Shown here: positions 1 through 8,924 of the stretch, piece by piece | Layout of the letters: every line of letters starts with the position of its first letter | Numbering within the stretch: position 1 is the stretch's first letter | Origin: Pleurocapsa sp. CCALA 161 | GTDB taxonomy: Bacteria > Cyanobacteriota > Cyanobacteriia > Cyanobacteriales > Xenococcaceae | Length of the DNA stretch: 40,134 nt | Direction of reading: 5' to 3' | Assembly: GCF_003003995.1 (NCBI RefSeq) | Contig: NZ_PVWF01000046.1 | Coordinates: 1-40,134 of the forward strand | Made by a program: the position numbers and the translations under genes | Notes under the pieces: generated by a model | What the model saw: only the letters and a program-made list of their open reading frames with translations | Told to the model about the DNA's origin: nothing | The model's database searches: none

Positions 1-950
1 GTCAGAGTAGCTTTTAAATTGTTCTGACCTCGTTGCAGAGCCTGATAATAGAGAACTAAATCACCGAGTAATAAAACTCCTTGAATAGTTTGATAAATAA
101 TTAAACCAAAAACTATGAAGATAATAATGCCTGCAAAAGCTTGGGCTAAGAAAAAGGTTGTGGAACGTTTAATCGAAATTCCTAATTTTTCTTTATAAAG
201 CTTACTTCTAATTTTGTCGTACTCATTACTAAACCAATGACCTAAATTGAAGAGGCGAACTTCTTTGGCAAACTGTTCATTGGTTAGCATCCACCCTAAG
301 TACATCGACTGTCTTTCTAATTGAGTGCGTTTACGCTGCCAACTATACATAGTCCGAGAATACTCCATCCTGACAAAGACTGCTGGAATAGTCGCTACTA
401 GCAAAACACCAATAATCCCCCAATGTAGAGATACTAACAACCCCACCATGGCGATTAAGGAGATAAAATTTTGCACTAACTGAGCAAGACGAGTTAGAAT
501 TTGCGGTGGTCGATAGGGAGCTTCTTGCTGCGCTCTTTGTAGAGCGTCGTGATATTTGGCATTTTCATAGTATTCTAGGTCTGCTTCTATTGATTTAGCA
601 TGAATAATACCCTGCATATAGTCAGTTACTTTTTGAGCATGGGCTGTATTTACCAGCTCATTTAAGGATTGGCAGAAACTATCAACAATCGTAGCAACTC
701 CTGCTAAGACAATTAGGGGTAAAACTTGAGCGAAAACTTGCTCAGGATTACTGGCTTTGAGGTTGATAGTTACTGTATCAATAATTAGTTTAGCCAGATA
801 AATCAACGCCAAAGGCATCAATCCTTGTACTACTACTAGAGCTAGTCGAGTAATTGTCCAACCAGGACTACTTTGCCAAACTAAACGTAGAGCTGGTAGA
901 AAGCGAATCGCCACTTTAAATTTCTTTTTAACAGTTTGGCTAATTTTCAT
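1..950 (-). CDS. ABC transporter, N-terminal membrane domain (partial), lasso peptide exporter
   Basis: The gene begins at the ATG at 948-950 (MKISQTVKKKFKVAIRFLPA) and stays open to the left window edge, giving about 316 residues. The visible part is the transmembrane half of a type I exporter (ABC_membrane fold): hydrophobic segments occur near residues 30-55 and 100-115, and again near residues 160-180 and 270-295. The nucleotide-binding domain lies outside the window, so no Walker motifs can be checked. It starts 27 bases after the kinase gene ends and is the last visible gene of the lasso peptide set, the usual place for a McjD-like exporter that releases the mature peptide and gives immunity. 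That role is inferred from context. The sequence alone supports only an ABC exporter. Confidence 0.85.
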   Translation of the reverse strand, partial: MKISQTVKKKFKVAIRFLPALRLVWQSSPGWTITRLALVVVQGLMPLALIYLAKLIIDTVTINLKASNPEQVFAQVLPLIVLAGVATIVDSFCQSLNELVNTAHAQKVTDYMQGIIHAKSIEADLEYYENAKYHDALQRAQQEAPYRPPQILTRLAQLVQNFISLIAMVGLLVSLHWGIIGVLLVATIPAVFVRMEYSRTMYSWQRKRTQLERQSMYLGWMLTNEQFAKEVRLFNLGHWFSNEYDKIRSKLYKEKLGISIKRSTTFFLAQAFAGIIIFIVFGLIIYQTIQGVLLLGDLVLYYQALQRGQNNLKATL

Positions 951-977
951 GATTTAAGAGGCAAAAGAGTACTTTCT

Positions 978-1844
978 TTATATTTGGTTTAGGTCTTCTT
1001 TTATTGACATTACTAACTCAGGGAGTTCTGATAGTACAAATTTGCGTTCTAATTTAAAGATAGGTATGTTGCTAACCAAGTTAGCGCACTGTTGAAAATG
1101 AACTTGCTCTAATTCCTGATGTTTCAAAGCTTGGACAGCACGAGTATGACGAACTAATTCCATGAAAGCGTTTTGGGGAGAAAAAAGAGTTATTTTGTTG
1201 CGATCGCCATGAGCTAATACATAAATTCGTTTCAAAGGGTAGGGTTGATTGACAAACCCATGTCCTAGCTGATGTACTCGTTTTTGAGTTAAAGGATGCA
1301 GAGGAGATAGAGTACCGCGATCAAAACCTAATGCTTCAGCAGAATCTGATCTTAATTTGATACTGGGAAAAGAGGGAATAACTAAATAAGGATTAACCTT
1401 GGTGTTAATTGCCATTACATCTTCAGTCAGAACACCATATCCTTCGCGATGCAATGCTGAAGCAATAGTTGATTTACCTGAACCTGAAGAACCAAGAAAA
1501 GCAATTGCCCCACCTTCTACTAATACACAACTAGCGTGTAAAACTAGGAATCCTCTTTGTTGTAGTAGTACCACCATTGCTGAACCTAAAATACAAGGAC
1601 ACAACACATTTTCACTTATTCCTACCTCTGGATTGATAATTATTTCTTGACCATTTCTAATTAAAAATTCTCCTACTCCAGGAAGTTTTCCTAATAAATG
1701 ATTTTGATCTTTGAAATAATTTAGCGAATATTTTTTTAGGTTTTTAATAGTCACAATTACGTCTGGTTTACCATCATGTTTAACTGACGCTAATAACGTG
1801 GTTTCTGATTTTATAATTAATCCATAGGCAGTTGAAGTATGCAT
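978..1844 (-). CDS. HprK-like kinase of a lasso peptide cluster
   Basis: A 288-residue protein resembling the C-terminal catalytic domain of HPr kinase/phosphorylase. An LHAS motif at residues 102-105 precedes a P-loop, GSSGSGKS, at about 118-125, followed by EDV at 141-143, which matches the order in HprK-like proteins. It has no HPr-regulatory N-terminal domain of the E. coli/Bacillus type. Such kinases are known from lasso peptide clusters (the paeninodin type), where they phosphorylate the C-terminal residue of the precursor. Here the gene sits directly between the precursor and the exporter, so the precursor peptide is the likely substrate (inference). The predicted precursor ends in Thr rather than the Ser seen in characterised examples. 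The gene follows a terminator-like hairpin at 1882-1908, so its expression probably depends on read-through. Confidence 0.82.
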   Translation of the reverse strand: MHTSTAYGLIIKSETTLLASVKHDGKPDVIVTIKNLKKYSLNYFKDQNHLLGKLPGVGEFLIRNGQEIIINPEVGISENVLCPCILGSAMVVLLQQRGFLVLHASCVLVEGGAIAFLGSSGSGKSTIASALHREGYGVLTEDVMAINTKVNPYLVIPSFPSIKLRSDSAEALGFDRGTLSPLHPLTQKRVHQLGHGFVNQPYPLKRIYVLAHGDRNKITLFSPQNAFMELVRHTRAVQALKHQELEQVHFQQCANLVSNIPIFKLERKFVLSELPELVMSIKEDLNQI

Positions 1845-1881
1845 AAGTGTAGTTAAATCATTTTTATTAAATATTTAAGAA

Positions 1882-1908
1882 AAGGGAGAATAAAAAATAT
1901 TCTCCCTT
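1882..1908 (-). terminator. Hairpin between lasso precursor and kinase genes (attenuator-like)
   Basis: A perfect 11-bp inverted repeat (aagggagaata / tattctccctt) with a 5-base A/T loop lies 52 bases beyond the precursor stop codon. On the transcribed (minus) strand the stem is followed by a T-rich stretch (ttctt, then AT-rich). This is the layout of an intrinsic terminator or a 3'-end stabiliser. Because the kinase and exporter continue in the same direction beyond it, partial termination would make the precursor more abundant than the enzymes (inference). Confidence 0.7.
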
Positions 1909-1959
1909 GTTTATTAAATTGATGTATTTTATGTATTTAGATTTTACTAATTTTACTAA

Positions 1960-2121
1960 TTAAGTATTAATAGTAACATCTCCAGAACCATCAGTTGGGA
2001 TACCCAGAGTAGTTCCATTAACAATAATAGAATCCTGAACTGGAGACGGACCTCTTGCTTGAGTAACAGTATCAATATTACCGTAAGCAGTTAGCTTGGG
2101 AGTTGAATATTTTGTTTTCAT
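1960..2121 (-). CDS. Lasso peptide precursor (leader plus core)
   Basis: A 53-residue peptide starting MKTKYSTPKLTAYG. This start is chosen because aaggag lies about 7 bases upstream; the ATG two codons earlier (2127) is almost on top of that site, and a longer frame to 2184 would run over the promoter. The leader fits the lasso consensus YxxPxLxxxGxxxxxT exactly (Tyr5, Pro8, Leu10, Gly14, Thr20). With Thr20 as the conserved penultimate leader residue, the core begins at Ala22 and Asp30 falls at core position 9, so an Ala1-Asp9 macrolactam ring (ARGPSPVQD) is predicted. The core would be 32 residues, rich in Gly, Ser, Thr and Asp, ending DVTINT. This is long for a lasso peptide. A trimmed product is possible. 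The family assignment is strong; the exact core boundaries are inferred. Confidence 0.85.
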   Translation of the reverse strand: MKTKYSTPKLTAYGNIDTVTQARGPSPVQDSIIVNGTTLGIPTDGSGDVTINT

Positions 2122-2134
2122 TTGCATTCTCCTT

Positions 2135-2150
2135 GTGAATAAATATTCAC
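2135..2150 (-). promoter_or_regulatory. Inverted repeat next to the precursor ribosome binding site
   Basis: gtgaata-aa-tattcac is a perfect 7-bp inverted repeat with a 2-base spacer. It directly abuts the aaggag ribosome binding site of the lasso precursor and lies just downstream of the proposed -10 box, so it would form the very 5' end of the transcript. It could be an operator for a dimeric regulator or, less likely with so short a loop, an RNA element affecting translation or stability. The sequence is certain; the function is inference. Confidence 0.5.
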
Positions 2151-2155
2151 TATTT

Positions 2156-2184
2156 AATATACAATATTTTCCTTTAAAAATCAA
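2156..2184 (-). promoter_or_regulatory. Sigma70-type promoter of the lasso precursor
   Basis: On the minus strand TTGATT (2179-2184) and TATATT (2156-2161) are separated by exactly 17 bases. They match the -35 and -10 consensus at 4/6 and 5/6 positions. The predicted start of transcription is near 2149, about 28 bases before the chosen start codon. This would give the precursor its own transcript, separate from the upstream cyclase. Confidence 0.6.
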
Positions 2185-2307
2185 CTTTTTTAATTATAAT
2201 AGAGCAATAAATTAAATATCGATAACTCAAAAATACAAGTAATTATGTAGAATAACTTATTGTAAAATAATATCAAAAAATAGTTTAACTTGCTATTAAT
2301 AAAAATC

Positions 2308-4326
2308 TTAATCTTTGTAATTCATCATGATTGCAAGCCATAAAGATAGAGAAATACTAGCCCAGATTTTAATGATTATATTTTCTGTAATTTTTCCTTC
2401 GTTAATTGAATTTTGATACATTGACTTTAAATGGGCAATGTCTACAAAATCGGCAATATTTTTTGATTTAATTATCATTGCCTCTTCTAAAATTTTCTGG
2501 TCATACTCCAATAAACCTTTAATCATTCCTGGAGTTATATCAGTTTTATCGCCTCGCCATTGAATTTTAGGTGGAAGGATACTATCCATTGCTCTTCTCA
2601 AAACCATCCTTGACCAACCTTGATTTAGTTTTTGTGTTGCGGGTAAAGCCAAACAAAATTCAATCAATCTTTTGTCCATAAAGGGATGACGAGATTCAAT
2701 TCCAAAAGCAGCAGCATAAGCATCCAATCCTTCTAAAGGAATCGAAAACAATCCTGAAGTTAATTCCCGCCAGTGATGCTCTTTTTGTGTCCATGGTGGA
2801 TCTTTGGAACGATCAAAAGATTGTACGCGCTCGCTCAATCCAATACGTTGAGCAAAATCAGGGTTAACTAGAGGAAAAGGATTAGATGGAGTGCGTTTAG
2901 ATCGATTGAAATAACGTAATTTCTGTTTAATTCCATCGGGAACTATCGCTTTGAAACCATAGTTAAGCCAAAGTCGGCGATGGGAAATTTCAACAGCTTC
3001 ACTAATTTGATGAACAGCTTGCCAAAAAGCCAACCATTTTCCTGTTCTAGCTAGTTCTTTTAGAACAGGTAATCCATAATGACGTAAAAGCTTAGTAGGT
3101 GACTGATTAAAGTTTTTAGCTAAAGCTGTTCCTTCGACTAAAAAGGCTTTCCATTTTCCTGCTCTAGCTAATTCACTTAAATAATAAACCCCGTGGGAAA
3201 CGGTGCTATCGCCATCAAAACCATTTAAACTAATACGTACCCCAGCTTCTCTGGTAGCACGGTTCAAACCCCAAACTAGATAGCAGTTACCAATCAGCGA
3301 TTCATCACAATATTTAAAAAAATTTTGCCATTCCGATAGAGGTCCTGTCTGGTCGGGATGAACAAAATGGGGGATGAGATCCCCCTGAGCAATTACTGTT
3401 TCAATATAATTACGTTCGTTGGATTCTGGAACACTATCAAAGATGTTAGAAAAAGTATGAAGTCGCTTTCCTTGTTCCTTTAATAAATTCTTTGCCACAC
3501 AAGTAATTGAAGAAGAATCTAAGCCACCACTTAGATGAGAACCAATAGGGTAGGCACTCCGCAAACGACATTGAACAGCTTCGGTAAATATTTCTAAAAA
3601 TGCTTCGGCATATTCTTGATCGGAATTAAGTCTTATTTCTTCACCAGGTTCAAGCGACCAATAACGATGTAGCGTAAGCTTCCCTTTTCGGTTTATAGTT
3701 AATGTATGTGCAGCAGGAAGCCGCCAAATATCCTGATATGATGTGATGCTTGGGTCTTCTAAAGTAGAGGTTAAGTAATCCCCAATTCTAACTTCGTTAA
3801 GTTGGAAGGGAACATCAGCTAATCGAACTATGGCTTTGATTTCAGAAGCAAAAACAAAAGTTTGATTTGCTTGATGGTAATAGCAAAATGGTTTTACCCC
3901 AAAATGATCTCTGGCGCAAAACAGTTTTTGTTCGCGTTTATCCCAAATGGCAAAAGCAAAATCACCTAACAACTCTTGAGGACAATTTTCACCCCATTTA
4001 TAGTAAGCTTTTAAAATAAGCTCTACATCGGTAATTTTTTCAGCAGCGAGATCTCTTAAATCCAGACGAGAAATCAATTCGTCGCGATTGTCAATTCTGG
4101 CATCAGCAGTAATTACGCAGTTTCCATAATCATCAGTTAATGGTTGCTTCTCCAGTAACGATTCAGGAGTAGTCCAAAGCAGACGATGACCCAAACCAAC
4201 GTTATCTTGACACAAGATATCAGCTCCATCTGAACCACGATGAGCTAGAGTATCTGACATCTTTTGTAAAACATTTGATTCGGCTGGCTGACCATCAAAA
4301 TAATAAACACCGAAAATTCCGCTCAT
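2308..4326 (-). CDS. Lasso cyclase, asparagine synthetase B-like (C protein)
   Basis: A 672-residue protein with the two-domain layout of class B asparagine synthetase. Residues 1 to about 215 are a glutaminase-like N-terminal domain (MSGIFGVYYFDG) and the rest is an ATP-pyrophosphatase-type synthetase domain with the PP-loop SGGLDSSS at 266-273. The catalytic Cys2 of true glutamine-hydrolysing synthetases is Ser here, as expected for a lasso cyclase, which activates an Asp or Glu side chain with ATP and closes the ring on the peptide N-terminus instead of using ammonia. Its neighbours, a B1/B2 pair upstream and a precursor with a matching leader downstream, make the cyclase role much more likely than asparagine synthesis. 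A 186-base gap containing the precursor promoter separates it from the precursor gene. Confidence 0.88.
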   Translation of the reverse strand: MSGIFGVYYFDGQPAESNVLQKMSDTLAHRGSDGADILCQDNVGLGHRLLWTTPESLLEKQPLTDDYGNCVITADARIDNRDELISRLDLRDLAAEKITDVELILKAYYKWGENCPQELLGDFAFAIWDKREQKLFCARDHFGVKPFCYYHQANQTFVFASEIKAIVRLADVPFQLNEVRIGDYLTSTLEDPSITSYQDIWRLPAAHTLTINRKGKLTLHRYWSLEPGEEIRLNSDQEYAEAFLEIFTEAVQCRLRSAYPIGSHLSGGLDSSSITCVAKNLLKEQGKRLHTFSNIFDSVPESNERNYIETVIAQGDLIPHFVHPDQTGPLSEWQNFFKYCDESLIGNCYLVWGLNRATREAGVRISLNGFDGDSTVSHGVYYLSELARAGKWKAFLVEGTALAKNFNQSPTKLLRHYGLPVLKELARTGKWLAFWQAVHQISEAVEISHRRLWLNYGFKAIVPDGIKQKLRYFNRSKRTPSNPFPLVNPDFAQRIGLSERVQSFDRSKDPPWTQKEHHWRELTSGLFSIPLEGLDAYAAAFGIESRHPFMDKRLIEFCLALPATQKLNQGWSRMVLRRAMDSILPPKIQWRGDKTDITPGMIKGLLEYDQKILEEAMIIKSKNIADFVDIAHLKSMYQNSINEGKITENIIIKIWASISLSLWLAIMMNYKD

Positions 4327-4380
4327 AATGCATATTTGAAAAAAGTGTTAATATTTAAGTTGCTGCACAATAACAATAAT

Positions 4381-4689
4381 TTAATTAAGAATTTCTTCTT
4401 CGCTTACTTCAAGTAATTTCGCTGCTTGCATTTCCCTCAATATTGATTGAAGATCTTGCTCTGCTTGTTCTGGAGTTACTTCGTATTCCTCTAGAATTAA
4501 GTCAAGTAATTTTTCTTTCGTTTGGGGTTGTTGTAACCACTGCCAAATATCGACTCCAACTGAATTAAGACCGTAATAAACTCCAGATTCTAGGTCGAGA
4601 ATAACTGCCTCATCAGCAATTTCTGAATACAGATGGTTTTGGGATATTTTATAAGTTGTAGATTGATTCGTAGTAATTTTAATGCTCAT
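4381..4689 (-). CDS. PqqD-family lasso leader recognition protein (B1/RRE)
   Basis: A 102-residue protein with the PqqD fold that serves as a RiPP recognition element. The central ADEAVILDLESGVYYGLN and the following aromatic helix (VGVDIWQWL) are typical of the family. It would bind the leader peptide of the precursor and deliver it to the B2 protease. An aggaa ribosome binding site stands about 5 bases before the ATG. It lies between the protease and cyclase genes on the same strand, 54 bases before the cyclase. The separate B1 and B2 arrangement seen here is common outside the proteobacterial fused-B type. Confidence 0.9.
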   Translation of the reverse strand: MSIKITTNQSTTYKISQNHLYSEIADEAVILDLESGVYYGLNSVGVDIWQWLQQPQTKEKLLDLILEEYEVTPEQAEQDLQSILREMQAAKLLEVSEEEILN

Positions 4690-4904
4690 GTTTCCTTCAG
4701 GCTCACTTACGCTACGTAATTAGAATAAGTAAATAAAAATGCTTTACTGAAGCTTATTCGAAATACCTTTTAAATATAGGTTGTAGATAAGTAACCAAAA
4801 AGTAAGATCACTATAATTTTGAAAGTTTTTATGGTTACACAAACAATTGCAATACCTTGCTCGATCGCTCTTTTCCACGATTACTTCATCAACCTTGGGA
4901 AAAG
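4690..4904. other. 215-base gap between lasso B2 and B1 genes
   Basis: No reading frame of note. The stretch is AT-rich near the B1 start and contains a HIP1-like gatcgctc near 4861. No convincing promoter or terminator was recognised. Confidence 0.4.
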
Positions 4905-5369
4905 CTAGACTTGCATTAAACGAGGAGTAATCTTGGCAATATCAGCGCGGTCATTTAGCACTTTGCCGTTGTAAGTAACCCAAGCATGACCCATATCTTC
5001 TCCCCAGCCAATTTCCAGTTGAGCATTAATTCCCCGTGCTTGCAACCACTGATGTAAAACTAGGGAACGATGTAAACATTTAGGGCCCAGAGGATGAATT
5101 TTGGCTGTCCAAGCGATCGCGATCGCCCTTTGCCGAATTTCTCTGGTTATTTCTGAGTTTAAACTAGCTGGTTGAAGATCGGCAGGAACTTTTAACGCCT
5201 CTAGAGCCATCTCTTTAAGCCGACTATCTACCCACCATAGTTGCTTGAATGCCCATAGACAAAGTGGGATATACTTCGGCTTGGCGATCACTTTACCCAG
5301 TAACTGAGGAAATATCAAGAAAACTTTTATTATCTGGGAAGAGGCGATCGCATTTAAGATCATATTCAT
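4905..5369 (-). CDS. Lasso leader peptidase, transglutaminase-like (B2)
   Basis: A 154-residue protein of the lasso peptide B2 / transglutaminase-like cysteine protease family. The catalytic triad is visible as Cys98 (GPKCLHRSLVL), His128 (GHAWVTYNG) and Asp140 (VLNDRAD). It removes the leader from the precursor, after the conserved Thr-x, in cooperation with the PqqD-like B1 protein encoded next. It is the first clear lasso gene in transcription order and begins 36 bases after the glycosyltransferase gene upstream, so it may share that transcript. The length is normal for a stand-alone B2 protein. Confidence 0.9.
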   Translation of the reverse strand: MNMILNAIASSQIIKVFLIFPQLLGKVIAKPKYIPLCLWAFKQLWWVDSRLKEMALEALKVPADLQPASLNSEITREIRQRAIAIAWTAKIHPLGPKCLHRSLVLHQWLQARGINAQLEIGWGEDMGHAWVTYNGKVLNDRADIAKITPRLMQV

Positions 5370-5405: not shown

Positions 5406-6551
5406 TTAATTTGATAAAGCTTGTTCAAAACTAGCGAGGATAGTTTCCCAAGAAAAATTTTGTTGAGCATCAACATAACCTTGTTGACCTAAGGTTTTAG
5501 CTAGAGAAGGAGCTTTAATCAATTTTTCGATTAATTTGCCCAAGGCGATCGCATCTTCAGGGGGAAACAAATAACCATTTACACCATCTTTAATTAACTC
5601 TAATGCGCCCCCCGCAGCAGAGGCAATTACTGGCTTCTGAGCCAACTGCCCTTCGACAATTACCCTGCCAAAAGGTTCTGGTTCAGTAGAAGTATGAACT
5701 ATAATGTCACAAGCTTTCATGAGAGTGGGAATATCATCCCGAAACCCCAACCAATGAACTCTTCCTTTTAATTCAGGTGTCTCAGCTAAAGTTTTAAGTT
5801 CAGTAACATATTCTTGTTCTCCAAATAAAGCTGTTCCGACTAGAAGCACATGAACTTTAGGGCTGTGTTTAATCGCCTCTAACAAAATATGCTGACCTTT
5901 CCAATAAGAAAAACGACTAAATAATCCTACTAAAAAACCATTGCCAATGCCTAATTGCTCACGAATTTTTTTGACATCATCGAAATTTACCAGGTCAAAT
6001 TTCTGAGGATCAAAACCGTTGTAAACTACGCGAGTTAACTTCGCTTTTCCTCCAGCAACAACAAAAGCTTTCCCTGTAGCTTGAGAATTAACCAACACTT
6101 TAGCAGCAAATTGATTAGCTAAAAAAATCGCTACTAGACGATTAACTTGACTAAAATGCCCAGCTGTTAGGATATCGTGCAAATACCACAAAACTGCTGG
6201 ACTACCTCTTAAAGAAGCTAAAGCTGCCGTAATAAAAGCTTTTTGAGAATTAGCTAAAATTAGATCGTAACCTTTTGCTTCTCGGTCAATATAACCTGCA
6301 ATCTGCCAAAGTTCGGGGATCGTTACTAACGAGCTTAATCCTCCAGAAGTACGCAAATTGAGCATAGTGTTAGAAACAGGGGCAACCTGGACTTTAACTC
6401 CTGCTTGTTCTAGACGTTCGCGTAAAATACCATCTTGAAATAAAAGTACTTTGCTCGTATCTGCATATGCAGTTGCCAAGTCTAATAGACTAAGTTCAGC
6501 TCCTCCCATAACAGCTGTGTGATCGACAAAGAGAATTCTGTGTTGCTTCAT
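5406..6551 (-). CDS. Glycosyltransferase family 4
   Basis: A 381-residue GT-B fold glycosyltransferase. The N-terminal domain opens HRILFVDHTAVMGGAELSLL, with the glycine-rich acceptor-side loop of the family. The C-terminal nucleotide-sugar domain carries the E-x7-E motif in EPEPFGRVIVEG followed by KPVIASAAGG. The ATG at 6549-6551 is preferred over the TTG one codon earlier. It begins only 10 bases after the end of the STAND ATPase gene and ends 36 bases before the lasso B2 protease, so all three could be cotranscribed. It may belong to the exopolysaccharide cluster across the intergenic region, or it could decorate the lasso peptide. The sequence does not decide, and the sugar and acceptor cannot be told. 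Confidence 0.88.
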   Translation of the reverse strand: MKQHRILFVDHTAVMGGAELSLLDLATAYADTSKVLLFQDGILRERLEQAGVKVQVAPVSNTMLNLRTSGGLSSLVTIPELWQIAGYIDREAKGYDLILANSQKAFITAALASLRGSPAVLWYLHDILTAGHFSQVNRLVAIFLANQFAAKVLVNSQATGKAFVVAGGKAKLTRVVYNGFDPQKFDLVNFDDVKKIREQLGIGNGFLVGLFSRFSYWKGQHILLEAIKHSPKVHVLLVGTALFGEQEYVTELKTLAETPELKGRVHWLGFRDDIPTLMKACDIIVHTSTEPEPFGRVIVEGQLAQKPVIASAAGGALELIKDGVNGYLFPPEDAIALGKLIEKLIKAPSLAKTLGQQGYVDAQQNFSWETILASFEQALSN

Positions 6552-6561
6552 CAAAATATTT

Positions 6562-7926
6562 TTAAAGAGCTAGTTGAACCAATTTTCTACGCACATAGCT
6601 TTTCATGATTGGCATGAGAGAATATTGGGAGTTGTCTTTTACCATGAGCGATCGCTTTTCTAAAGATGCAATACTCTTGTTAAATTTTATTTTAGATTGA
6701 GCATGTTTTAGATTGGTGGCTAAATCTTTTTGAGGGATTGGTTGACAAGATATTGCTAACCAAAAAATAATTTCTTTTTCTAGTTTTGATAAGCAATCTA
6801 GCTCTTGCTCTAATAAACTAACAATTTCTTCTACAAGACACAGCTCTTGCACAACTTGTTCTAAGTCTTCATGATCATCATGAAAAATATTCAAGTGAGA
6901 AGCAGTAATTTTTAATAATTGGGGATTACAATGCAACCTTGTCGATAAATCTAGTAGCTTTGTCTTCTCGATCTTAGTACTGTCTAAATTGGTAATTTGC
7001 TCAATAGTTGATTCTTCTAATCCTTGAAGATCGAGAATTTTAATCTGGTTCATACCATAGTATTCGAGAGACTTAGGCCTGACTCGGCTGGCGCAAATCA
7101 TCAGACTTTGATGATTAGTAGCTATAATTGACCTTAAAAAGTGTCCGTAGTCTTCAAGATTTCGTTGATAGCAAATACCTACTTGATCGACTTCTAGAAT
7201 AGATTCTAAATCATCTAATACGAGTAAAATTCTTTTCTGTTTTAAATGGTTAATTAACTGAGCCAGTAATGAACTTAAGTCTTGTTGGGTAAATCCTGAA
7301 TTGCTGTGTTGGTCTTGGTTTTGACCGATTATTTTTAAAAAATTATTAGTTAATGTTGTTGGCGATAGCGAATTATTGAGTGAAAACCAGATAACATAAT
7401 CAAATTGGCTCTGATTATCTTTGGCAAATTTAGTAATCAAACTAGTTTTACCACAACCAACCATTCCAGAGACTACAATACAGTTACAGTTTGAATCTTG
7501 ACTCCAAGATTTTAAAAGCTTTATTTGTTTGTCTCTACCAATAAAATGCTCTGTATTAGGAGCTGTCGCCCAATGGTAAAATTCTCGTTTTAAAGATTCA
7601 GTAGATAGTACTTGAGAATTTTGATTGGTTAGCAATTCATCTCTCTTATTCACAACTATTGAGCAACTGATCTTCTGTCTCATATAAGGAACAAAATTAC
7701 TCTTATTAATTTGCTCATTAAAAGCATTAGAAAGAATCTGCCACAAATTACAGCCTACAGTCTTAATGTATTCTGGATCGTAATTGTAATCACAAGCCAT
7801 CTTAGAATATGTCTTGCCATTCCACACTTCTCTCAGTACTATTTCTTGAGTTGCACTCAGGTAGGTAGGACTGATAGTACGGTCTATTAAAGACAAAACA
7901 GAGTTAAAATCTATTGGATTAGTCAT
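6562..7926 (-). CDS. STAND-type NTPase with N-terminal helix-turn-helix, putative regulator
   Basis: A 454-residue protein from the ATG at 7924-7926 (MTNPIDFNSVLSLID). A TTG 24 codons upstream is possible, but that extension looks unlike the family. Residues 1-85 resemble the winged-helix domain found at the start of many cyanobacterial STAND proteins, with the signature WNGKTYSKMACDYNY and LWQILSNAF. An NB-ARC/AAA-type NTPase follows, with Walker A GMVGCGKTS at 154-162 and Walker B ILLVLDD at 233-239, then a helical and winged-helix end. No WD40 or TPR sensor repeats follow, so it is short for a STAND regulator. It is divergent from the exopolysaccharide cluster and precedes a glycosyltransferase. 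By analogy with XssQ, the STAND activator of synechan genes in Synechocystis, it may regulate the cluster (inference). Confidence 0.75.
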   Translation of the reverse strand: MTNPIDFNSVLSLIDRTISPTYLSATQEIVLREVWNGKTYSKMACDYNYDPEYIKTVGCNLWQILSNAFNEQINKSNFVPYMRQKISCSIVVNKRDELLTNQNSQVLSTESLKREFYHWATAPNTEHFIGRDKQIKLLKSWSQDSNCNCIVVSGMVGCGKTSLITKFAKDNQSQFDYVIWFSLNNSLSPTTLTNNFLKIIGQNQDQHSNSGFTQQDLSSLLAQLINHLKQKRILLVLDDLESILEVDQVGICYQRNLEDYGHFLRSIIATNHQSLMICASRVRPKSLEYYGMNQIKILDLQGLEESTIEQITNLDSTKIEKTKLLDLSTRLHCNPQLLKITASHLNIFHDDHEDLEQVVQELCLVEEIVSLLEQELDCLSKLEKEIIFWLAISCQPIPQKDLATNLKHAQSKIKFNKSIASLEKRSLMVKDNSQYSLMPIMKSYVRRKLVQLAL

Positions 7927-8924
7927 TGCGGATAAATGAAGTCTATGTAGAGCGTGGAAATAGATACATCTCTGAAAATAGATACAAACATACTTCAATT
8001 TAGTTTTTTAAGCACAGATAGTTGATTTTGTTAATAGTACAATGGTTATTTGTTAGCTACTATACTATTATGAAATATTTTGTTTCCTTACTTTTTTATA
8101 TGTCAAAGTTGTGAATTTTTGACAATGGCAAGCTATAATCCATACAATATTGGTTTAGGAAAAACAGTGTTGTATGAACCGATACTTAAACTTAATTTAA
8201 ATGGTTTTACTTGTGATTTCCCGAATAACATAAAACAATACATCGTTAGACCCACTAAAGTCAACTGTATTAAGTGATTAAATTAAGTGGTCATTTTTTC
8301 CTTGTGAGGACATTACAGCAGCACATATATATATATCAATTTAAATGGTTTTGATCAAGGTATTTCAATAAGCATGTACCTGATGGCTACTCGACACAAG
8401 TACCTCAAACCCTTTTTAAATATAAATTCTTTCTTTTGAGTGCAAAAGACACTTTTTGAGCAAGCGATCGCTTGTAAGCACTGACAAAATTTAATTTCAA
8501 CGGAAAATATAGGATTGACATGGATGTGTCAGGTAGCCAGACGTGTATGTTGTGCTACAAGATTTACTTAAGCAATTGCACAGTCAGTTATTTTAGGGTT
8601 TTAATTTTGCCTCTTGATAGGGAAAACGCTTGTGCCACTAAGTATAATTACTCAGTGGTATAAGTGCGATACTCGTTCCCTATAACTTTCATATAACTTT
8701 TAAGTCACTTTAAAGAAATTATTTTTTTGATAGGTTTAACTTAACTGTTTATTTCTAAATATAAATACGGAGATTTAAAAACTTAAACTTCTTATAATCT
8801 CCTCTTATCGAAATAAATTGGATCAGCCGAAACAGAGAGTAAAGCGAAGTTTATAGTCTTACATGTTGAAGAATAAACGCAGACTAAGTAGCGAAATTTT
8901 GACAATAGATAATATCGGATATAA
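7927..8924. other. Divergent intergenic region of about 1 kb before the exopolysaccharide cluster
   Basis: No convincing gene. An open frame at 8125-8277 (MASYNPYNIGLGK) has no ribosome binding site or recognised relatives. Structure seen: an alternating AT run at 8325-8336, a 14-base direct repeat aatttaaatggttt at 8194 and 8338, an imperfect inverted repeat at 8627-8668 and a smaller one at 8769-8802. The size and position between two divergent transcripts suggest promoters and control sites or a long 5' leader for the downstream operon. No specific promoter can be asserted. Confidence 0.5.
8627..8668. repeat. Imperfect inverted repeat upstream of the exopolysaccharide cluster
   Basis: The arm cgcttgtgccact (8627-8639) pairs with agtggtataagtgcg (8654-8668) apart from a two-base bulge and two mismatches or wobble pairs; the spacer is AT-rich. 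It lies about 255 bases before the first glycosyltransferase. It could be an operator or a leader-RNA hairpin. No T-run follows on either strand, so it is not a typical terminator. Confidence 0.45.

Follow-up and report, generated by a model that had tools for sequence, protein, structure and literature searches.

Which residue does a lasso peptide kinase modify when its precursor does not end in Ser? In the available text of the two sources, characterised lasso kinases phosphorylate either the C-terminal Ser of the precursor (PMC9266682) or, in the case of BsfK, Ser3 of the ring (PMC10368454). The question is raised by a lasso peptide locus of Pleurocapsa sp. CCALA 161. It was studied in the window, that is, the whole analysed stretch of 40,134 nt (assembly GCF_003003995.1, contig NZ_PVWF01000046.1, positions 1-40,134, forward strand), and in related loci.

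The gene cluster and its continuation on a second contig

All six lasso genes, encoding B2, B1, cyclase, precursor, HprK-like kinase and ABC exporter, are carried on the minus strand (Table 1). The one-strand gene set described in an earlier, sequence-only reading of this DNA was thus borne out by the ORFs and their family-model matches. That reading had called the cluster complete; the six genes are present, but the exporter is truncated at the contig end. Its remainder is found on contig C75, whose end overlaps the window end by exactly 77 bases. The exporter half and the 605-aa exporter of L086, a locus from the same genus, share 95% identity. C75 also brings to the locus a nucleotidyltransferase, a component of pseudomycoidin-type pathways, which adjoins the exporter in L086 too. 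No nucleotidyltransferase was found in 12 loci, a count that may partly reflect where the examined stretch ends.

Judged by its gene content, the cluster is a lasso peptide cluster of a known cyanobacterial type. It is more than a chance assembly because matches lie above curated cut-offs, the gene set is common to relatives' loci among the stretches retrieved for comparison, and dN/dS between the window and L086 is low (0.05-0.27 for B1, B2, cyclase, kinase and exporter). A kinase was present within 5 kb on the same strand at 57 of 59 cyclases (the window included; L006/L074 and L007/L193 are the same loci under two ids), and the loci behind this count were picked for their precursor or cyclase and without regard to a kinase. 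The lasso pathway with a kinase, as proposed earlier, is therefore well supported by this count and by the family models. By the same count a kinase belongs to the normal equipment of such clusters, and the view that it is an unusual feature was rejected.

In B2, Cys98 and His128 of the triad suggested previously do not vary among the 55 aligned proteins (window included). A conserved Asp140 as its third member was rejected: in this alignment the position is Asp in 6/55 and Gly in 49/55 proteins, which gives it no support. The cyclase carries SGGLDSS, which we take to be the ATP motif. The Ser that had been pointed out in place of its glutaminase Cys2 is indeed there, but it is the family norm (54/54 aligned cyclases, window included).

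The Rfam scan of the window gave 0 matches. Promoter-like and terminator-like sites between 900 and 5700 were no more frequent than in shuffled sequence (terminator-like sites, 3 observed against 2.8 from shuffles). The inverted repeat between the precursor and kinase genes scored in that search on the plus strand only. It folds well as minus-strand RNA (z = -5.9), and L086 has a hairpin at the equivalent place (z = -4.8).

Table 1. Features of the lasso peptide locus; positions refer to the window unless C75 is named.
Feature	Position	Strand	Basis
ABC exporter, transmembrane half, truncated at contig end, 316 aa	3..950	-	PF00664 (24 bits, below cut-off of 28); L086 homology
HprK-like lasso peptide kinase, 288 aa	978..1844	-	TIGR04352 (HprK_rel_A; 38 bits, below cut-off of 200); Hpr_kinase_C (18 bits, below cut-off of 33); alignment; Foldseek
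Inverted repeat, possible leaky terminator	1882..1908	.	
Precursor peptide, 53 aa, family lasso_cyano	1960..2121	-	NF033528 (40.8 bits, cut-off 33); sequence reading
D23-G24-S25-G26-D27 codons; Ser25, predicted phosphate acceptor	1978..1992	-	
A1 to D9 codons, predicted 9-residue macrolactam ring	2032..2058	-	
Thr(-2), Gln(-1) codons, predicted leader end	2059..2064	-	
Lasso cyclase, Asn-synthetase-like, 672 aa	2308..4326	-	NF033535 (961.8 bits, cut-off 525)
B1, PqqD-like leader-binding protein (RRE), 102 aa	4381..4689	-	PF05402 (PqqD; 70.2 bits, cut-off 23.4); NCBIfam lasso B1 models below cut-offs (62 vs 80, 45 vs 70)
B2 leader peptidase, transglutaminase-like cysteine protease, 154 aa	4905..5369	-	NF033537 (47.3 bits, cut-off 33); Transglut_core3 (48.9 bits, cut-off 26)
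Exporter remainder	C75 1-945		Exact 77-base overlap with window
Nucleotidyltransferase, NTP_transf_5 (PF14907)	C75 951-2180		215 bits

The precursor and its predicted ring

The second ATG was taken as the start of the precursor because an AAGGAG ends 7 bases before it. The product consists of a 21-aa leader, with YSTPKL...G and hence the YxxPxL pattern, and a 32-aa core. Thr is present at -2 in 116/116 cores of the kinase clade described below (window included); precursors were found with a pattern that accepts Thr, Ile or Val there and constrains the leader, not the tail. Asp occupies core position 8-10 in all 116 (window included), with D9 in 41/45 cores of the first set and 70/71 of the new one. 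In the window the acidic residue within core positions 7-9 is Asp9, and from the family rules a nine-residue ring is predicted. The expected monoisotopic mass is 3133.59 for the lasso and 3213.56 with one phosphate. The core ends in Thr32 and contains, apart from Ser25, Ser5 and Ser10. Window and L086 precursors are 54% identical with dN/dS of about 0.9, and Ser25 is kept between them.

An invariant serine inside the tail

In the kinase tree the window falls within a clade of 23 kinases (SH-aLRT 99, by a quick method that gave a long-branch warning, with no such branch in this clade). The set of cores was made up of this clade together with L086 and L179, two loci included by kinship, their kinase frames being broken or cut. 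For it, 78 stretches were read; L004 (on the same contig as L086), L009, L093, L094 and short search-returned loci were left out, and a scan of genome contigs yielded just 6 loci. An aligned tail Ser, Ser25 in the window, was present in 45 of 45 distinct cores from 25 clusters. In 100 shuffles of these cores the best Ser column reached a mean of 10.3 and a maximum of 31, but such figures overstate independence, as neither the shuffles nor the Fisher test allows for the common descent of the cores. No other column has Ser or Thr in every one of the 45 cores, and 5-27 further residues follow this Ser.

A strict motif was fixed from the first 45 cores before cores from new genomes were seen. The 71 new cores are those beside kinases with their best match in the window's clade. 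Of these, 63 have the strict motif, against a shuffled mean of 9.2 and maximum of 20, and 8 lack it. A relaxed motif, set after these misses had been seen, was found in 68/71; one of the three remaining cores has Cys for Ser. The new genomes all have family code f6, which was also the source of 14/25 first clusters; the other 11 come from f1, f2, f8, f11, f24 and a named Elainella. Codon usage sets the invariant Ser apart: it is encoded by TCN in 112 cases and AGY in 1 (n=113), as against TCN 144 and AGY 135 for other tail Ser (n=279). For this comparison the Ser was identified from the alignment in the first cores and with the relaxed motif in the new ones.

The C-terminal Ser was rejected as acceptor; it cannot serve in the window because the core ends in Thr. 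Such a Ser is present in 1/45 clade cores and 5/71 new cores. In other clades 23/62 cores end in Ser, and Ser is in the last four residues of 46/62 cores, compared with 7/45 in the window's clade. The available evidence points to the internal Ser25 as the acceptor.

The conservation of this Ser could instead serve folding, trimming or export. It is conceivable, if rather unlikely, that a lasso is made in which the internal Ser is kept as a trimming site, for exporter recognition or for the tail fold, and in which the kinase has another target, such as a hydroxyl in the ring. BsfK does phosphorylate a ring residue, Ser3, as described in the available text of PMC10368454. Ser5 and Ser10 are also present in the window core, and Ser10 is common to L086. 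The variable segment after the tail Ser, sometimes with a Cys pair, may have a role of its own. However, no ring position (1-9) is a conserved hydroxyl in the clade, and core position 3, in particular, is Gly in 43/45 cores and in the window. At core position 10 the commonest residues in the clade are V, T and F. A single column is left that is Ser or Thr throughout, and it is in the tail.

As a separate observation, the segment after the tail Ser differs from relative to relative, and Cys pairs or G-V-x-x-P are seen in some of them.

The kinase and its Glu-Asp pair

The predicted kinase structure (pLDDT 78) resembles the HprK/PEPCK fold: Foldseek matched it to PEPCK and HprK, with loose superpositions. 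By alignment position, we take His103, Lys124, Glu141 and Asp142 of the window kinase to be the published catalytic residues. In the alignment of 65 kinases, position 141 is Glu in the window and Asp in the other 64, so that the window has His-Lys-Glu-Asp in place of His-Lys-Asp-Asp. The latter residues are essential in the studied lasso kinases, according to the available part of a review (PMC9266682).

The exchange could mean that the kinase of this lineage has lost or changed its activity and that the product is an unphosphorylated lasso. In L086 the cyclase, kinase and nucleotidyltransferase are each split into two ORFs in different frames, which would agree with such a loss, but L086 is a MAG contig with a coverage of 3.07 and the broken frames may be errors. 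Two further Glu-Asp kinases were found in the new genomes, and they differ in their neighbours: that of L282 adjoins a precursor without the motif, whereas that of L289 adjoins a normal Ser motif. The kinase dN/dS of 0.145 over 209 aligned residues (window against L086) indicates purifying selection on the window kinase, and L086 carries the same Glu; both argue for a maintained protein. Decay of the kinase was rejected on these grounds, and an unphosphorylated product is considered improbable.

Trimming after the invariant Ser, giving a paeninodin-like lasso with C-terminal (phospho)Ser, would be compatible with phosphorylation of Ser25 and would fit the terminal or near-terminal Ser of other clades and the cluster L006, where one kinase accompanies a core ending in TFS and two ending in TFSGTF, but it is quite improbable, since no peptidase besides B2 was found among the proteins scanned (8 in the window, 2 on C75) and the patterns after the Ser in some relatives suggest that these residues are kept.

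Proposed pathway and its meaning

We favour, with moderate confidence, a lasso pathway in which the kinase phosphorylates Ser25. B1 would bind the leader of the precursor, and the kinase would act at the tail motif DGS(G)D of the linear precursor, like its studied relatives: action on the precursor in its linear form is what the available text of three sources describes for known lasso kinases (PMC9266682, PMC8498205, PMC10368454). B2 would cleave after T(-2)Q(-1), and the cyclase would close a ring of 9 residues by linking Ala1 with Asp9, which leaves a tail of 23. A sugar or nucleotide cap may be placed on the phosphate by the C75 nucleotidyltransferase, in line with the proposal made for pseudomycoidin; release of the product would fall to the ABC exporter. 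Phosphorylation of the product is plausible; the Glu-Asp pair and the undescribed acceptor site weigh on the claim.

For the group as a whole we lean, if only slightly, towards the reading that a widespread cyanobacterial kinase clade phosphorylates a fixed mid-tail Ser, a third acceptor position, with a variable extension after it, that a nucleotidyltransferase caps the phosphate in part of the clade, and that the window uses a Glu-Asp pair. If this is true, there are at least three modes of acceptor choice among lasso kinases (end Ser, ring Ser3 and mid-tail Ser), and a C-terminal-Ser rule for phosphorylation would overlook a large group of cyanobacterial clusters. The role of lasso peptide phosphorylation has not yet been unravelled, according to the available part of the review PMC9266682, and a phosphate that separates the threaded part from a variable extension would be a new handle on it. 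The prediction is a precise one, involving a single residue, a single mass shift and a single mutant.

Comparison with known systems

NCBI has models for the cyanobacterial lasso precursor and cyclase. Lasso peptides are called 'underexplored in Cyanobacteria' in the available text of PMC9967302, and clusters of this class have already been published from Roseofilum (PMC9967302) and Cyanocohniella sp. LLY (PMC9332814). Like the window, the former have B1, B2, cyclase and exporters, and the latter has B1, B2, cyclase and precursor; neither a lasso-cluster kinase nor an acceptor site or product mass is mentioned in the available passages of the two accounts. Among the matches listed in the open-licence PMC literature, neither a characterised cyanobacterial lasso peptide nor an internal mid-tail Ser acceptor was found. 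The product of the window is thus likely to be undescribed, as had been surmised from the sequence.

The paeninodin cluster (PadeK/ThcoK; Paenibacillus, Thermobacillus), as far as the available text of two reviews describes it (PMC9266682, PMC8498205), shares with the window the lasso genes, an exporter and an HprK-like kinase, which there takes the linear precursor as its substrate. PadeK uses the C-terminal Ser, whereas the window core lacks one and its clade conserves the internal tail Ser; the motif of PadeK/ThcoK is His-Lys-Asp-Asp, unlike that of the window kinase. The pseudomycoidin cluster (PsmK, PsmN), in the part of its description available, is similar in having a kinase and a nucleotidyltransferase near the lasso genes, the window's being on the adjoining C75. 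PsmN presumably belongs to PF14907. In pseudomycoidin the phosphate is on the C-terminal Ser according to the available text of the review (PMC9266682), unlike the predicted Ser25. BsfA/BsfK of Bradymonas sediminis, in the available text of PMC10368454, resembles the window in having a precursor without C-terminal Ser. BsfK is distant from PadeK and is aided by B1; it targets ring Ser3 with Ile(-2) in the leader, whereas the window has Thr(-2) and a tail Ser as the candidate acceptor.

A lasso peptide cluster probably split between two contigs

The window is one whole contig, C153, of 40134 bases; the cyanobacterial genome to which it belongs measures 5.37 Mb. On the minus strand of its first 5.4 kb lie, in the order of transcription, the genes for the leader peptidase B2, the leader-binding protein B1, a cyclase, the precursor and a kinase, followed by an ABC exporter gene of which only the first half is present. 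Family models were matched over their cut-offs by the cyclase (NF033535, 961.8 bits against 525), B2 (NF033537, 47.3 against 33), the precursor (NF033528 lasso_cyano, 40.8 against 33) and B1 (PqqD model, 70 against 23). The lasso peptide cluster on one strand, proposed in the sequence-only reading, is thus borne out, and it is almost certainly a genuine member of this known class. The lasso cyclase model has a single match in the whole genome; of the three Asn_synthase matches, the lasso cyclase scores 146 bits and the remaining two 33 and 22.

The cluster had also been called complete. The exporter, however, runs into the contig end, and its other half is found at the start of C75, another contig of the same genome; the two contig ends have exactly 77 bases in common. 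On C75 the rest of the exporter is followed by a 409-aa NTP_transf_5 protein (PF14907, 215 bits). The same gene order is seen in L086, a stretch from the same genus; there the exporter is intact (605 aa), the nucleotidyltransferase is spread over two frames, and the genes that follow are the same. The join is well supported, though not proven. The nucleotidyltransferases of C75 and L086 are only 40-46% identical, whereas the adjoining exporters are 95% identical, which could be read either as replacement by a non-orthologous gene or as very fast change. The window and L086 alone have B2 ahead of B1; B1 is first in the remaining 52 of 54 same-strand neighbouring pairs (53 loci).

Coordinates of features in the window and in fetched stretches
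Stretch	Positions	Feature
Window	4381-5369	B2 upstream of B1
Window	5406-6554	Glycosyltransferase gene
Window	6562-7998	NB-ARC/STAND ATPase (PF00931, 56 bits), adjoining the glycosyltransferase gene
C75 (locus L218)	951-2180	Nucleotidyltransferase
L086	12888-14127	Nucleotidyltransferase
L006	9158-9891	Triplet of precursors next to a single kinase
L078	9143-13982	Tandem array of five ORFs with a B1-like match, next to a single cyclase

The kinase is a normal component of these clusters

Searches of 386 genomes of the phylum gave precursor model matches in 19 at E 0.001 (10 over the cut-off) and cyclase model matches in 23 at E 1e-90 (17 over the cut-off); within the order, the cyclase model matched 47/388 genomes at E 1e-130. 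Neighbourhoods were surveyed in 78 stretches, window included, chosen by precursor or cyclase and not by kinase. Among cyclases scoring at least 700 with a profile built here, 57 of 59 have a same-strand kinase no more than 5 kb away, the exceptions being those of L186 and L200; for lower-scoring cyclase frames the count is 12/21. The kinase is therefore a normal part of clusters in this cyclase family. The nucleotidyltransferase is present in 38 of the 78 stretches.

Three 15-kb stretches (L073, L079, L080) carry a kinase, B1, a B2-like protein, an exporter and a nucleotidyltransferase, and no cyclase was found within them. Their precursor cores start QVGGSGGF, without an acidic residue at positions 7-9, and perhaps represent a family of phosphopeptides that form no lasso ring.

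The precursor and a conserved serine in its tail

The window precursor is MKTKYSTPKLTAYGNIDTVTQ-ARGPSPVQDSIIVNGTTLGIPTDGSGDVTINT (leader-core), its start being placed at the second ATG because AAGGAG ends seven bases upstream. From Thr at position -2 of the leader and Asp at core position 9, a nine-residue ring is predicted. Calculated masses are 3133.59 for the lasso form and 3213.56 for its singly phosphorylated counterpart. A hairpin between the precursor and kinase genes (z -5.9; -4.8 in L086) may allow excess precursor production; no excess of terminator-like sites was found, which counts against a terminator role.

In a tree of 66 kinases, built by a quick method with a long-branch warning elsewhere than in this clade, the window kinase falls within a clade of 23 (SH-aLRT 99). 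Precursors beside these 23 kinases, with those of L086 and L179, gave 45 distinct cores of 30-58 residues from 25 clusters, 14 of them from family f6 and 11 from f1, f2, f8, f11, f24 and the named Elainella. In the aligned tails one column is Ser in 45/45 cores, and no other column has Ser or Thr throughout; with shuffled tails (100 alignments) the best Ser column averaged 10.3, maximum 31. This serine, Ser25 in the window, lies at core position 23-38 with 5-27 residues after it. A C-terminal Ser occurs only once in the clade, as against 23 of 62 distinct cores outside it, and Ser is within the last four residues in 7/45 against 46/62. Many of the outside cores look like the paeninodin type, and a few have the ring motif GGSGGD.

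A precursor model spanning leader and ring, and hardly the tail, matched 61 of 217 f6 genomes at E 1e-7. From 50 previously unused ones, 51 stretches were fetched, with 80 precursors, one identical to the first set and 76 distinct and new; of the latter, 71 adjoin a kinase whose best match falls in the window's clade, 2 another kinase and 3 no kinase in range. The first set had supplied a strict motif, [GDS]S.[DSN] no earlier than core position 22, and 63/71 new cores carry it (shuffled tails average 9.2, maximum 20; 500 rounds); 5/71 have a C-terminal Ser. Relaxing the motif post hoc by one more allowed residue gives 68/71; the three exceptions include a core with Cys replacing Ser. Since f6 also supplied 14 of the first 25 clusters, this result tests new species, not a new lineage. 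All 116 of 116 clade cores, window included, follow a Thr at -2 and carry Asp at one of core positions 8-10.

Across both sets the conserved Ser is encoded by TCN, with all four third bases, in 112/113 cases and by AGT in one, as against 144 TCN and 135 AGY for other tail serines; the Fisher values of 6e-11 and 3e-14 are underestimates because the sequences are related. Because a switch between TCN and AGY as a rule takes two substitutions, this near-exclusive use suggests that the serine was hardly ever lost and regained. It also does not seem to depend on the nucleotidyltransferase: it is present in all 20 clade loci counted (window, L086 and L179 aside), of which 8 have that gene and 12 lack it in the stretch.

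In many precursors (L062, L069, L170-L173 and, among the new genomes, relatives such as L247) two Cys residues follow the conserved Ser, suggesting that the C-terminal extension forms a disulfide loop. One of the L006 precursors ends TFS and two end TFSGTF, which offers a natural way to see whether an acceptor serine has to be terminal.

The window kinase and predicted phosphorylation at Ser25

The kinase profile match is weak (HprK_rel_A, 38 bits against a cut-off of 200). In Foldseek, however, an AlphaFold2 model of the protein (built from 5 sequences; pLDDT 78, pTM 0.80) matched PEP carboxykinases as well as HPr kinases, with best E 3e-7; for HprK 3tqf_B, E was 1.3e-5 and TM 0.60 on target, 0.34 on query. 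His103 and Lys124 are invariant across 65 aligned kinases.

Phosphorylation at Ser25 is the best reading of these sequences and a rather probable one. The conserved Ser might instead have a role other than phosphate acceptor. Alternatively the kinase may have changed in this lineage, for which speaks Glu141 in the window where 64/65 kinases have Asp. The L086 kinase, outside the 65, likewise has Glu, and among 53 new-genome kinases, 46 of them readable by the catalytic pattern (one cut short), the Glu-Asp pair occurs in 2. Against such a change, comparison of the window with L086 gives the kinase a dN/dS of 0.145 (exporter 0.05; B1, B2 and cyclase 0.12-0.27; precursor 0.9), so that the protein appears maintained in this lineage, though with a changed predicted catalytic residue. 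Lastly, the peptide could be trimmed at the conserved Ser. These three alternatives are not all mutually exclusive. The phosphorylated product that the sequence-only reading suggested from the kinase is plausible. With a core ending in Thr its acceptor cannot be a C-terminal Ser, and the conserved tail serine is the probable one; the Glu-Asp pair keeps this a prediction.

Comparison with known lasso kinases

Among the open-licence papers searched, none was found to report a lasso peptide whose acceptor lies inside the tail, or to describe the product of a lasso cluster from a cyanobacterium. PMC10368454 gives Ser3 of the ring as the acceptor for BsfK, and PMC13381572 gives Ser3 for LppK, of a non-lasso family. 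Kinases of L191, L199 and L202, which group with that of L198 in the tree, accompany lasso-like precursors with ring motifs such as GGSGGD or SGSNTD; these kinases look as if they use a ring Ser. According to the reviews PMC9266682 and PMC8498205, a His-Lys-Asp-Asp motif is essential in the lasso kinases studied, and PadeK, ThcoK, SyanK and PsmK phosphorylate a C-terminal Ser. Unlike the substrates of these four enzymes, the window core ends in Thr.
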